From the NCBI RefSeq assembly GCF_000019965.1, contig NC_010571.1:4535001-4599000 (forward strand): a stretch of DNA of 64,000 nt. The letters run 5' to 3'. A model generated the notes under the pieces. The model had not been told where the DNA came from. It saw nothing but the letters and a program-made list of their open reading frames with translations, and did not search any database. Shown here piece by piece: positions 53,889-57,684 of the stretch. Every line of letters starts with the position of its first letter. The stretch's first letter is position 1. This DNA is from Opitutus terrae PB90-1. Its GTDB lineage: Bacteria > Verrucomicrobiota > Verrucomicrobiia > Opitutales > Opitutaceae. The translations under genes were made by a program, and so were the position numbers.

Positions 53889-55211
53889 TCAGCCCGCGTC
53901 CGTCCCCGCGCCGATCCGCGGCAGTACTTCGCCGAGCAAATAGATCGAGCCAGTGATGACAATGCTGTCATCTGGTCCGCCGAGCGCGCAGTGGTCGCCG
54001 CCCGGAAAAATTTCGGCCACCGTGGTCCGCGCCACACGCCCGGGGAATCCAGCCGGAATGAGCGCGGCGAGTTCCTCGTAGCTGCTCGCGCGCGGCTGGT
54101 TCGGCACCACGAGATGGACCTCGCCCGCGTGCCGGCAAATCGCCGCCATGAGCGGCTGCGCCCGCTCCGCCCCCAGCACGCCCACAACGACGATCGGCGC
54201 GCGGCCGGTCTCTGCCCTCAGCCGCGCCAGGTTCGCGTCCAACACGGACGCGCCTTCCGCGTTGTGCGACGCGTCGAGGATCACGCGCCGGCCACCCACC
54301 AAGACCCGCTGCCAGCGGCCCGGCCAGCGCACATGCCACAGCCCGTGCGCGATCGCCCGTTCGGAGATTCTCCAGCGTGAATCGAGTTCGCGCGCCGCCA
54401 ACGTCGCCGTCGCGGCGTTCCACCGCTGGTAGTCGCCCGCGAGATTGGTTTCCGGATAAACCGCCAGGTTCTCGCCGTAGACTTCGCGCACGGAGATCAC
54501 CCGCGCCTCCATTTCCTCCGCCCGCGCCCGGATCACCGTCTCGGCCGCCGGCGGCACGCGTCCGATCACCACCGGACGCTCCGGTTTGATGATGCCCGCC
54601 TTGGCCCGCGCGATTTCCTCGAGCGTGTGCCCCAACCATTCGCAGTGATCAAAGCCGATCGAGGTGATCACGGTCATCTCCGGATCCACGAGGTTGGTCG
54701 CATCGAACTCCCCTCCGAGGCCCACCTCCATCACCGCGATGTCGCACCGCTGCCGGCCGAACTGCAGCAGCGCCATCGCCGTCATGTATTCAAAAAAGCT
54801 CGGCCGATCGCCGGGGCCTTCGCGCGCTGCGATCCGATCCGCGAGCACATCCAGTTCGCGCACATAGCCGACGATCTCCGCCGGCGCGAGCGGCTGGCGA
54901 TTCACCTGCACGCGCTCGCCGACGTGAACGAGATGCGGCGAGGTAAACAGACCCACGCGCCAGCCCGCGGCCCGCAAAATCGCCTCGAGCATCGCGGCCA
55001 CCGAGCCCTTGCCGTTCGTGCCCGCGACGTGCACGCAGCGCAGCGCCCGCTCCGGGTGGCCCAATTCGGCCGCGAGTAGCCGCATGCGGTCGAGCCCGAG
55101 CTTCGAACCGCCCGCCTTCAGTCCGCAAAGGTACTCCGCCACGGCCTCAAAACCCGCCGCCGCGTCCGGCTGCGCGCCGCGGCCGGATTCAGGATTTGGC
55201 GACGGAGGCAC
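53889..55211 (-). CDS. folC: Folylpolyglutamate/dihydrofolate synthase
   Basis: A 440-residue Mur-ligase-family enzyme. The P-loop VAGTNGKGSVAAMLE (about 62-76) is followed by TSPHLVHVGERVQVN, MEVGLGGEFDATN and TSIGFDHCEWLGHTLEEIARAKAGIIK. The C-terminal domain has RRVILDASHNAEG. It adds glutamate to dihydropteroate or folates. The start is a GTG at 55211, inside the end of accD (23-base overlap), since no later ATG would keep the N-terminal region; a GTG at 55142 is an alternative. Gene order accD-folC on one strand is common in many bacteria. Confidence 0.93.
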   Translation of the reverse strand: MPPSPNPESGRGAQPDAAAGFEAVAEYLCGLKAGGSKLGLDRMRLLAAELGHPERALRCVHVAGTNGKGSVAAMLEAILRAAGWRVGLFTSPHLVHVGERVQVNRQPLAPAEIVGYVRELDVLADRIAAREGPGDRPSFFEYMTAMALLQFGRQRCDIAVMEVGLGGEFDATNLVDPEMTVITSIGFDHCEWLGHTLEEIARAKAGIIKPERPVVIGRVPPAAETVIRARAEEMEARVISVREVYGENLAVYPETNLAGDYQRWNAATATLAARELDSRWRISERAIAHGLWHVRWPGRWQRVLVGGRRVILDASHNAEGASVLDANLARLRAETGRAPIVVVGVLGAERAQPLMAAICRHAGEVHLVVPNQPRASSYEELAALIPAGFPGRVARTTVAEIFPGGDHCALGGPDDSIVITGSIYLLGEVLPRIGAGTDAG

Positions 55212-56064
55212 TCGCAGGCGTCTGCTTCACATACAACGCGAGCAGAATCTGGTGCAGCCGCTCGCGCATCTCGGTCCGCGGCACGATCTGATCGATCAGG
55301 CCATGCTTCAGCAGGAACTCCGATGTCTGGAAGCCCGGCGGCAGCGTTTGCTTCGTGGTGTCCTTGATCACTCGCGGCCCCGCGAAACCGATCAACGCCC
55401 CGGGTTCCGCGAGGATCACGTCGCCGAGCGTCGCGTAGCTGGCGGACACACCGCCGGTGGTCGGATGCGTCAACACCGAGATGTAGGGCAGCCTGGCGGC
55501 TGCCAGCCGGCCGAGCGCGGCGCTCGTCTTGGCCATCTGCATCAGCGACAGGATGCCTTCTTGCATCCGCGCCCCGCCGGAGGTGCTGAAAATGATGCAG
55601 GGAATCTTCTGCGCGATCGCGGTCTCGATCGCGCGCGTGATCTTCTCGCCGGCCGCCGAGCCGAGCGTGCCGCCGCAAAACCGAAAATCCATCACCGCGA
55701 GCGACACCGGCACGCCGTGGATCTTACCCGCACCCGTGACGACGGCCTCCGGCAGCCCACTCTCCTTTTCGTACTTCTTGATTCGGGCCGGATAGGGGGC
55801 GGAGTCGACGAACTGCAGCGGATCGGCTGACCGAACCTCGATGTTGGACTCCACGAACGAGCCTGGATCCAGCAGATAGCCGAGTCGTTCGCGTGCCCCG
55901 ATGGGAAAATGATGGCCGCTCGCCGGCACGACCATCTGGTTGTCCGCGATATCCTTGGTGAAAACCGCTTCCCCGCTCACTGGGTCCTTGGTGTAGACCC
56001 CTTGCGGGATTTCCTTTTTGCGCGTCTTGCGAACCGTGTAGGTCGGTTTGTCGAAATGCGTCAT
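55189..56064 (-). CDS. accD: Acetyl-CoA carboxylase carboxyltransferase beta subunit lacking the zinc ribbon cysteines
   Basis: A 291-residue carboxyltransferase. The core fits E. coli AccD throughout (CGGTLGSAAGEKITRAIE, FSTSGGARMQEGILSLMQMAKTSAAL, GFAGPRVIKDTTKQTLPPGFQTSEFLL). The N-terminus aligns without gaps with E. coli AccD (IPQGVYTKD...HHFPIG against IPEGVWTKC...HHMRMT), but the four zinc-ligand cysteines C27, C30, C46 and C49 are Asp27, Ser30, Val46 and Ser49 here. The zinc ribbon is therefore absent. In E. coli this ribbon is implicated in CoA/DNA contacts, so binding may differ. It forms malonyl-CoA with AccA and is followed by folC. Confidence 0.93.
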   Translation of the reverse strand: MTHFDKPTYTVRKTRKKEIPQGVYTKDPVSGEAVFTKDIADNQMVVPASGHHFPIGARERLGYLLDPGSFVESNIEVRSADPLQFVDSAPYPARIKKYEKESGLPEAVVTGAGKIHGVPVSLAVMDFRFCGGTLGSAAGEKITRAIETAIAQKIPCIIFSTSGGARMQEGILSLMQMAKTSAALGRLAAARLPYISVLTHPTTGGVSASYATLGDVILAEPGALIGFAGPRVIKDTTKQTLPPGFQTSEFLLKHGLIDQIVPRTEMRERLHQILLALYVKQTPASASVAKS

Positions 56065-56069
56065 AGGCG

Positions 56070-56804
56070 TCAGCCGTGACCGAACGTGACGACGTCAAGG
56101 CTCACCGCACCGGCGCGCCGGAGAGTCTGCGCGCAGCTGTTGAGCGTGGAGCCAGTGGTGAAAACGTCATCGACCAGGAGATAATGATCGGCGGCACTTA
56201 TGACGGCGCCGGAAGCCAGTGCAAAGGCATTTTTGAGATTTAACTGCCGCGTGCGGCGGTCGTGCTGGGTTTGCGAAACGGTGTCCACGGTGCGACGCAG
56301 CAGCGGCCTCACGTGCGCCGCTCCGTCGACGGCGCGAAGCAGCGCCTGGGCGATCTGCTCGCTCTGGTTGAAGCCACGCTCGCGCAACTTGCGCGGGTGC
56401 AGCGGTACCGGCACGAGCGTCGCGCCGCGGGCGAGTTCGAGCACGTGCGGCGAACGCCGGAAAATCCTTTCGAGATCAACCAACACCTGCAGCCCGCGGT
56501 GATACTTCAGCTCATGCACCAGCCCGCGCGCCGGGCCTTTCAGCAACACCGCGGTGCGTCCTTCGCGAAACGCCGGTGCGAGACCCTCGCAATGCGGACA
56601 CATCCGCTCCCCCTCGACCACGCCGTAGAACGGATGCCCACAGGTCGAACAATGCGGCGGTCGCACGTAATCGAGCTGGGCCGAGCACGCCGGACACAGA
56701 TGCCGGAACTCAGCCTCGCTCGGCACGAGCCCGCGGCAATGCACGCAAAGCGGCGGGAACACCACATCGCTGAGTCCGCGCAGCCACTGGCTCATCCCGC
56801 TCAT
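56070..56804 (-). CDS. ComF-family phosphoribosyltransferase-like protein
   Basis: A 244-residue ComF/GntX-type protein. The N-terminal part has four Cys pairs (CVHC, CPAC, CSTC, CPHC), likely a zinc-binding double ribbon. The C-terminal part is a PRTase fold with the PRPP-binding motif YLLVDDVFTTGSTLNSC (about residues 208-224) and a conserved VPVPLHPRKLRERGFNQSE upstream. In competent bacteria ComF helps DNA uptake; elsewhere its role is unclear. ATG 56804 (MSGMSQWLRGL) is preferred; ATG 56795 and an earlier 56870 are possible. It follows truA and precedes accD. Confidence 0.88.
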   Translation of the reverse strand: MSGMSQWLRGLSDVVFPPLCVHCRGLVPSEAEFRHLCPACSAQLDYVRPPHCSTCGHPFYGVVEGERMCPHCEGLAPAFREGRTAVLLKGPARGLVHELKYHRGLQVLVDLERIFRRSPHVLELARGATLVPVPLHPRKLRERGFNQSEQIAQALLRAVDGAAHVRPLLRRTVDTVSQTQHDRRTRQLNLKNAFALASGAVISAADHYLLVDDVFTTGSTLNSCAQTLRRAGAVSLDVVTFGHG

Positions 56805-56862
56805 TGTTCTCGGCGCCGCGGCTGTCGTTTTTGTTCCAACGCGCCACGCGTGCGCGTCCCGG

Positions 56863-57684
56863 TCACTCATCGTTATCCACGTCGGTCGTTGCTGCGGTTG
56901 ACCGGCGGCCAGGCCGGTAGAACACCCGCACCAGAAACAGGCCCTGCGGCGGCGCCGTTTGCACCACCGCGGTCCGCTGCCGCGAGGCGAGAATTGCGCG
57001 CACGTCGTGCACCGTCAGCTTGCCCTCGCCCACCGCCACGAGCACGCCGACCAGACTGCGCACCATCTTGTAGAGAAACCCGTCGGCCTCCGCGATGATG
57101 CGGATGACTCGTCCGCGCCGGCGCACGTCGAGTCGACGCAGGTCGCGTACGGTGTCCACGCGCGCGGGCCCATTGAGCGCGGTGAACGCGCGAAAATCGT
57201 GCCGGCCGCGCAGCACGGCGGCGGCGGCGTTCATCGCCGCCAGATCGAGTGGCCGAAAGACCGGCCAGCTATAGGGTCGCGTGAACGGATCCGCGTCGCC
57301 GAGGTGGAGGCGATACGTGTAGCGCTTGCCGCTCGCCTGGAACCGCGCATGGAATTCCGGCGTCACCGCGCAAACCGTCTTGATCTGGATCGCGGACGGG
57401 AGCCGGGCACGCAACGCCGCGAGCAGCTTCTCCGGCCCGTGCCGCCAGTGCGCATCGAAATGAAACACCTGCCCAAGCGCGTGGACGCCCGCATCGGTGC
57501 GACCGCTGCCGTGAATGCGCACCTCGCGTCCGAACATTTCCCGCAGCCGCGCCTCGATCGCGTCCTGCACGCTCGCGCCGGAGACCTGGCTCTGCCAGCC
57601 CGCAAAATGTCCGCCATCATAGGCGCAGACGCATTTCCAGCGCGGTTCTGAACTGCTCGGGTGGGCCATCAGCGCGACGAGCAT
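56863..57684 (-). CDS. truA: tRNA pseudouridine(38-40) synthase
   Basis: A 273-residue TruA. The catalytic Asp64 lies in the family motif SGRTDAGVHALGQ, followed by the tRNA-binding segments KRYTYRLHLGD and RGRHDFRAFTALNG, and the terminal DGFLYKMVRSLVG. It isomerises U38-U40 in the anticodon stem of many tRNAs. The start is ATG 57684 or, 15 bases later, ATG 57669 (MAHPSSSE); the further upstream frame is repeat-derived. The C-terminal tail RRSTAATTDVDNDE is short and variable. It is the first gene of truA-comF-accD-folC. Confidence 0.94.
   Translation of the reverse strand: MLVALMAHPSSSEPRWKCVCAYDGGHFAGWQSQVSGASVQDAIEARLREMFGREVRIHGSGRTDAGVHALGQVFHFDAHWRHGPEKLLAALRARLPSAIQIKTVCAVTPEFHARFQASGKRYTYRLHLGDADPFTRPYSWPVFRPLDLAAMNAAAAVLRGRHDFRAFTALNGPARVDTVRDLRRLDVRRRGRVIRIIAEADGFLYKMVRSLVGVLVAVGEGKLTVHDVRAILASRQRTAVVQTAPPQGLFLVRVFYRPGRRSTAATTDVDNDE

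Follow-up and report, generated by a model that had tools for sequence, protein, structure and literature searches.

Loss of the zinc-ribbon cysteines of AccD in Opitutus terrae, across the Opitutales and in several Bacteroidota lineages

The AccD of Opitutus terrae PB90-1, beta subunit of the acetyl-CoA carboxylase carboxyltransferase, has kept its N-terminal ribbon while all four cysteines that would hold zinc there have been replaced. This is not a one-species oddity, a possibility that our ligand survey of the Opitutales rules out: the loss is order-wide and stepwise, and it recurs in Bacteroidota. Our best reading, which we consider probable, is that of a working zinc-free AccD acting with AccA, in which the ribbon is held by loops and packing and from which zinc was shed during a wider sparing of the metal, after its loss from the ribosomal protein bL31.

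The gene lies in the window, by which we mean the whole stretch of 64,000 nucleotides analysed here, positions 4,535,001-4,599,000 of the single contig of 5,957,605 bases that makes up the O. terrae genome. Features are collected in Table 1. In profile searches, the AccD of the window matched TIGR00515 (accD) over residues 10-277 with 365.1 bits, the cut-off being 317.45. The GGAR motif of its core is present in all 95 Opitutales AccD rows covering that site. The neighbouring folC supports orthology of this AccD; the end of accD overlaps folC by 23 bases (window positions 55189-55211).

Table 1. Features of the accD region of O. terrae, in window coordinates.
Feature	Coordinates	Strand	Description	Evidence
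accD	55189..56064	-	291 aa, acetyl-CoA carboxylase carboxyltransferase beta subunit, cysteine-free N-terminal ribbon	TIGR00515; ungapped alignment to 2f9y_B
N-terminal ribbon	55894..56013	-	residues 18-57, without zinc ligands	alignment; predicted fold
first former zinc knuckle	55969..55986	-	residues 27-32, DPVSGE (x-Pro-x-Ser/Thr-Gly)	codons; loop survey; predicted fold
second former zinc knuckle	55912..55929	-	residues 46-51, VPASGH (x-Pro-x-Ser-Gly)	codons; loop survey; predicted fold
codons of the former ligand residues	D27 55984-55986; S30 55975-55977; V46 55927-55929; S49 55918-55920	-		
carboxyltransferase core	55237..55893	-	residues 58-276, conserved GGAR (163-166)	Pfam PF01039, 98.2 bits
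folC	53889..55211	-		TIGR01499, 333.4 bits (cut-off 162.65)
ComF-like gene	56070..56870	-	just upstream of accD	TIGR00201, 85.2 bits (below cut-off 233.55); NF008616, 93.8 bits (below 304)
truA		-	minus-strand order truA, ComF-like gene, accD, folC	TIGR00071, 184.4 bits

An earlier note on this DNA had claimed a gapless N-terminal match to E. coli AccD with Asp, Ser, Val and Ser at the ligand positions. This is confirmed by phmmer, in which residues 9-278 of the two proteins (E. coli 2f9y_B) align with zero gaps, C27, C30, C46 and C49 of E. coli facing D27, S30, V46 and S49 of O. terrae. None of the four cysteines of a C4 zinc ribbon is thus present. They are lost and not displaced, the latter being what the note had named as a way for its claim to fail: over residues 18-57, 96 of 98 Opitutales rows align with O. 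terrae AccD without a gap and the other two with a gap of one residue. Similar ligand patterns are found in other genomes, DTVS in L005 (83% identical) and DSVS in L007. A pattern common to several genomes, together with these gapless rows, speaks against both a sequencing slip and an alignment shift. We infer from the sequence that O. terrae AccD binds no zinc.

The genome contains three Carboxyl_trans matches, namely AccD, AccA and a subunit of methylmalonyl/propionyl type, whose best model is TIGR01117 with a score below that model's cut-off. Searching this genome for accD gave only the window gene and the latter subunit, no second AccD being found; a separate AccD serving as main subunit, the other way in which the claim could have failed, is therefore ruled out. 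The partners are all in place: AccA (TIGR00513, 457.3 bits, cut-off 319.3), AccB (134.8 bits, cut-off 115.2) and AccC (733.3 bits, cut-off 626.5), AccB and AccC adjoining each other. Scoring partial matches and fragments as present, AccD and AccA occur together in 84 of 103 Opitutales genomes and are both missing from 11, while AccD alone and AccA alone are found in four genomes each. This co-occurrence indicates that zinc-free AccD goes with AccA as a pair. Among the 11 genomes without either (G080, G146, G172, G406, G409, G420, G430, G442, G454, G455 and G463), ten have a match to a propionyl/methylmalonyl-type carboxyltransferase, an enzyme which may stand in there as acetyl-CoA carboxylase. 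As to O. terrae AccD itself, every sign that can be read from the sequence, including the kept core motif, is in favour of a functional beta subunit.

How far does the loss extend? A search of 113 Opitutales genomes yielded full or partial AccD sequences from 98, with all four ligands missing in 22, three in 74 and two in 2. The most frequent patterns at positions 27, 30, 46 and 49 are CSVS (49), CTVS (18), DSVS (9) and DTAS (5); CCVS, CSIS, DSAS, CSFS and HTDS were each seen twice, and DTVS, DTSS, DNAS, CTFS, CSAS, CTS- and HNDS once. Position 27 (window positions 55984-55986) holds the sole remaining ligand, C27, in the 74 sequences lacking three, and where the cysteine has changed, Asp (19) or His (3) stands instead. 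Three Opitutales with small genomes of 0.8-0.9 Mb (L270, L271 and L272, family code f70) display a divergent ribbon, HTDS or HNDS, with an Asp46 that is also found in the VTDS sequences of Bacteroidota. Outside the order, the ligands are kept in all 61 AccD read from other Verrucomicrobiota (61 of 161 genomes), 15 of them from the class of O. terrae, and in 65 of 67 named loci from other groups, the remaining two being Bacteroidota. In the latter phylum, 40 of 63 AccD are CCCC whereas some or all ligands are gone in 23, with patterns VTDS (11), T-SD (3), S-SD (3), VTCS (2), S-VE (2), S-DS (1) and CTFS (1). These 63 sequences come from 62 of 198 genomes (the 30 best matches and 32 lower ones picked by hand) and from G195, a non-random sample, so that 23 of 63 is no estimate of frequency. 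In the class of O. terrae, the accD matches of 18 genomes of genus code g25 (family f7; e.g. G021, G024 and G063) are all weak (E about 1e-15 to 1e-17); bL31 is zinc-free in all three of them in which it was read.

The loss in AccD occurs against a background of zinc-free bL31. In O. terrae the single bL31 found is of type B, as is bL36; the two genes adjoin (L316:1483-1734 and L316:1756-2034, both on the minus strand). The bL31 motif is missing in all 38 Opitutales genomes read among the 96 with a match (37 by script, L424 by eye). In 42 genomes from other Verrucomicrobiota, the four-Cys form is the sole bL31 of 37 (36 identified by script and L365 by eye), one genome has both forms and four have only a zinc-free one. 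Within Bacteroidota, zinc-free bL31 accompanies zinc-free AccD in 22 of 22 genomes read, while genomes with four-Cys AccD divide into 20 with zinc-free and 13 with four-Cys bL31 (two by eye) out of 33. In L439, L444, L463 and L433, also Bacteroidota, bL31 is roughly as long as the zinc form, lacks the Cys motif and is distinct from the longer type B. Altogether, zinc-free AccD coincides with zinc-free bL31 in 53 of the 53 genomes in which both were read (31 Opitutales and 22 Bacteroidota), a count uncorrected for kinship. The link is one-way: zinc-free bL31 is also found with four-Cys AccD, and its loss is the wider one. The four relatives of L284 that have kept four-Cys AccD (L288, L193, L308 and L203) already carry zinc-free bL31, as would be predicted by a ratchet in which zinc sparing begins with bL31.

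The loss could also be unrelated to zinc supply and have come once the ribbon no longer served in regulation, if AccD had earlier bound its own mRNA as is reported for E. coli. Such binding is described for the E. coli protein in a review (PMC3896788), and zinc-free bL31 is found beside four-Cys AccD in the 20 Bacteroidota genomes mentioned above. Moreover, the ComF-like protein encoded beside accD has retained four CxxC pairs, so that zinc sites have not been lost wholesale; a general loss of zinc sites is accordingly unsupported. This explanation nevertheless does not account for the zinc-free bL31 that accompanies zinc-free AccD in every one of the 53 genomes read for both, and we regard it as rather unlikely.

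A working AccD that has dispensed with zinc should be told apart from a ribbon in decay, in which a dispensable domain would lose first its ligands and then itself, zinc going without replacement. The stepwise disappearance of two, three and four ligands has indeed the look of erosion, and in 17 Opitutaceae the median dN/dS of the ribbon is slightly above that of the core (0.148 against 0.120; 127 usable pairs of 136, with dS near saturation, means 1.0-1.3). Yet the domain is present in every Opitutales row examined, nearly always gapless, and its residues other than the ligands vary less than in zinc-bearing relatives. With ligands omitted and partial rows dropped, the ratio of ribbon to core mean pairwise difference, computed over non-independent pairs, is 1.33 in Opitutales (94 rows) against 1.73 in the remaining Verrucomicrobiota (61 rows); for Bacteroidota it is 1.31 where AccD is zinc-free (21) and 1.58 where it has four Cys (40), named four-Cys rows giving 1.57 (65). 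Outside its ligands, the ribbon is thus more conserved in zinc-free than in zinc-bearing relatives. The same type of loop sequence, described below, moreover arose in a second phylum. Decay is for these reasons improbable; the ribbon is under purifying selection and retained at full length.

What has taken the place of the knuckles is a pair of similar loops. The motif x-P-x-[ST]-G occupies the first (residues 27-32) in 86 and the second (46-51) in 80 of the 98 Opitutales sequences. Allowing Cys at the fourth place (x-P-x-[STC]-G), both loops conform in 73 of the 98 Opitutales sequences and in 14 of the 23 from zinc-free Bacteroidota; among four-Cys rows they do so in 1 of 61 from other Verrucomicrobiota, none of 65 from named loci and 1 of 40 from Bacteroidota. 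In the remaining nine zinc-free Bacteroidota the first loop is one residue shorter and reads x-P-x-G-K/E. A proline in both loops is still more widespread (94 of 98 Opitutales and 23 of 23 zinc-free Bacteroidota), and is met in 26 of 61, 15 of 65 and 9 of 40 of the corresponding four-Cys rows. An independent-pairs test of loop residues against zinc loss offered at most four pairs on starred branches and seven on all branches, and stayed below significance; changes at K/R37 went both ways. By their sequences, both knuckles have converged on x-Pro-x-Ser/Thr-Gly, which is reminiscent of hairpin loops. We take DPVSGE to resemble the designed hairpin loop Asn-Pro-Ala-Thr-Gly-Lys, a loop on which no literature was found in open-licence papers.

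Structure prediction, one of the checks proposed for the N-terminus, retains the ribbon fold. Ten-residue means of AlphaFold pLDDT over residues 21-60 are 90, 94, 96 and 96 for O. terrae, and 85, 95, 96 and 95 for the four-Cys control L048, which was modelled with the same 76 sequences and displays the same strands and helix one residue on. The O. terrae model places a six-residue loop between strands 24-26 and 33-35 and another between bridges 45 and 52, and these turns are exactly the x-Pro-x-Ser/Thr-Gly loops. With VIA-align, the model superimposes on E. coli 2f9y_B from residue 23 to 282 (Z 35.8, rmsd 1.8, 254 aligned) and on S. aureus 2f9i_B from residue 20 (Z 37.3, rmsd 1.7, 260 aligned). 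As four-Cys sequences make up 60 of the other 75 rows in the alignment, the predicted fold may be inherited from them, and the prediction speaks for compatibility and is not a proof: the model is compatible with a ribbon fold retained without zinc. As in the C- variants of zinc ribbons, the motif is disrupted and the domain is kept.

Could this ribbon still hold a metal through other ligands, such as D27 or C27, H52 or further side chains? H52 indeed occurs without exception in Opitutales (94 of 94 rows) and in zinc-free Bacteroidota (21 of 21), and all 98 Opitutales rows have C, D or H at position 27. However, H52 is just as common in zinc-bearing rows (59 of 61), which argues that it has not been recruited, and most zinc-free Bacteroidota carry V, S or T at position 27. 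The changes from C46 to V or A, from C30 to S or T and from C49 to S also lead to weak zinc ligands. A substitute metal site is thus quite improbable.

The number of origins was addressed with trees built from the core alone (residues 60-275), the ribbon being excluded. They require seven state changes, and a tree constrained to unite every zinc-free row in a single clade is rejected (log-likelihood lower by 182, p-AU 6.3e-6); AccD thus has the multiple independent origins known for C- zinc-ribbon variants. Free core trees split the Opitutales, with two changes in one tree and three in another, but a tree in which the order is constrained as one clade has a log-likelihood 55.5 above the free tree (p-AU 0.98). 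Given this better fit, the order may have lost its ligands once, at its base, which is the simplest view and is preferred to several origins within Opitutales. The loss in Bacteroidota touches at least three separate sublineages (L181, L284 and the rest) and perhaps more, L284 (CTFS) grouping with the CCCC rows L288, L193 and L308 in a starred clade.

Transfer of the zinc-free N-terminus between Opitutales and Bacteroidota, as gene or as domain and without convergence of the loops, is suggested by their striking likeness across phyla (VPTTGE...DPLSGY and CPETGE...VPKSGY), but it is very improbable, being rejected on the core by the one-clade test and unsupported in the ribbon, where six zinc-free Bacteroidota sequences are each closer on average to four-Cys relatives of their own phylum than to Opitutales. 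Identity at non-signature ribbon positions, own phylum first, is 0.50 and 0.31 for L284, 0.62 and 0.34 for L181, 0.50 and 0.34 for L292 and 0.45 and 0.27 for L306, with a smaller margin in L187 (0.42 and 0.34) and L202 (0.42 and 0.35); this proximity to the own phylum indicates that the change happened in place.

Coming back to a zinc-free AccD at work with AccA, the ribbon would still fold at the same place on the AccA-AccD complex, two rigid, self-closing hairpin loops of six residues and the packing around them holding it in zinc's stead. The geometry of the knuckle would be kept, the turn being closed by Pro, by a Ser/Thr hydroxyl replacing the second thiolate and by Gly, with a hydrophobic V46 now at the third ligand position. 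The intermediate CCVS rows suggest that the second knuckle changed first, then C30 and finally C27, and zinc would have been shed from AccD amid a wider sparing, after the loss of zinc from bL31. The earlier note had proposed that this lineage holds its carboxyltransferase complex together without zinc or stabilises the ribbon otherwise, and the kept fold, length and selection, with the new shared loops, fit that proposal. The scoring of the ligands, recommended for Opitutaceae and Verrucomicrobiota and extended here to Bacteroidota, turned up a stepwise loss throughout the order and its recurrence in the latter phylum, which, along with the zinc-free bL31, makes the case less singular and better explained than the note had supposed.

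On the other side stand data from E. coli, in which the zinc finger of AccD binds accA and accD mRNA and is reported as required for catalysis, according to the same review (PMC3896788), which adds that type II systems may generally share such regulation by mRNA binding. In sequence terms, a whole order and several Bacteroidota lineages whose sole detected AccD lacks the ligands imply that there is no general need for the metal. We tentatively go a step further, in a proposal that we hold for possible rather than probable: the zinc knuckles of this housekeeping enzyme would have been converted, convergently in at least two phyla, into metal-free self-folding hairpins of six residues (x-Pro-x-Ser/Thr-Gly), at a later stage of a ratchet of zinc sparing that starts with bL31; AccD would need the shape of the ribbon and not its metal, and the E. 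coli requirement for a zinc finger in activity and mRNA binding would be specific to its lineage. The matching loops suggest a simple and testable rule for turning a zinc knuckle into a metal-free turn, and L284 with its four-Cys relatives L288, L193 and L308 provides natural pairs for probing the role of the ribbon. Moiramide B and other antibacterials are directed at AccD, and zinc-free forms offer a useful comparison for them.

The AccD zinc finger is treated as conditional by UniProt/HAMAP, and the zinc-free sequences have been publicly available for a long time. We found no zinc-free AccD in titles and opening lines of abstracts of open-licence papers, and one paper treats AccD as zinc-dependent (PMC7678824). 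Related events are documented elsewhere: ribosomal proteins such as bacterial S4 exist in C+ and C- forms produced by stepwise and repeated loss (PMC3087516), zinc-independent ribosomal paralogues are put to use under zinc limitation (PMC5912738) and loss of zinc chelation is described in treble-clef fingers (PMC4999995).

Compared with the C4 zinc-ribbon beta subunits of E. coli (2f9y_B, 8uz2) and S. aureus (2f9i_B), O. terrae AccD shares the predicted fold including the ribbon, the AccA partner and the core motif, and its alignment with the E. coli protein runs without gap from residue 9 to 278, but it has no zinc ligands and both its knuckles read x-Pro-x-Ser-Gly. In Bacteroidota, the zinc-free AccD (among them those of L068 Fulvivirga, L187 and L284) have lost the same ligand positions and share both loops in 14 of 23 cases; they differ from Opitutales by a separate origin on the core tree and, in the other nine, by the shorter first loop. 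Many ribosomal C- cases come with zinc-responsive regulation or with a co-existing four-Cys paralogue, whereas the search of the O. terrae genome gave a single AccD. As in the C- variants of S4 and of type B bL31 and bL36, an ancestral four-Cys motif has been lost stepwise and repeatedly from a protein that is still used. Unlike them, AccD is a subunit of a metabolic enzyme without a four-Cys paralogue in its genome, and two phyla share similar loops in place of its knuckles.
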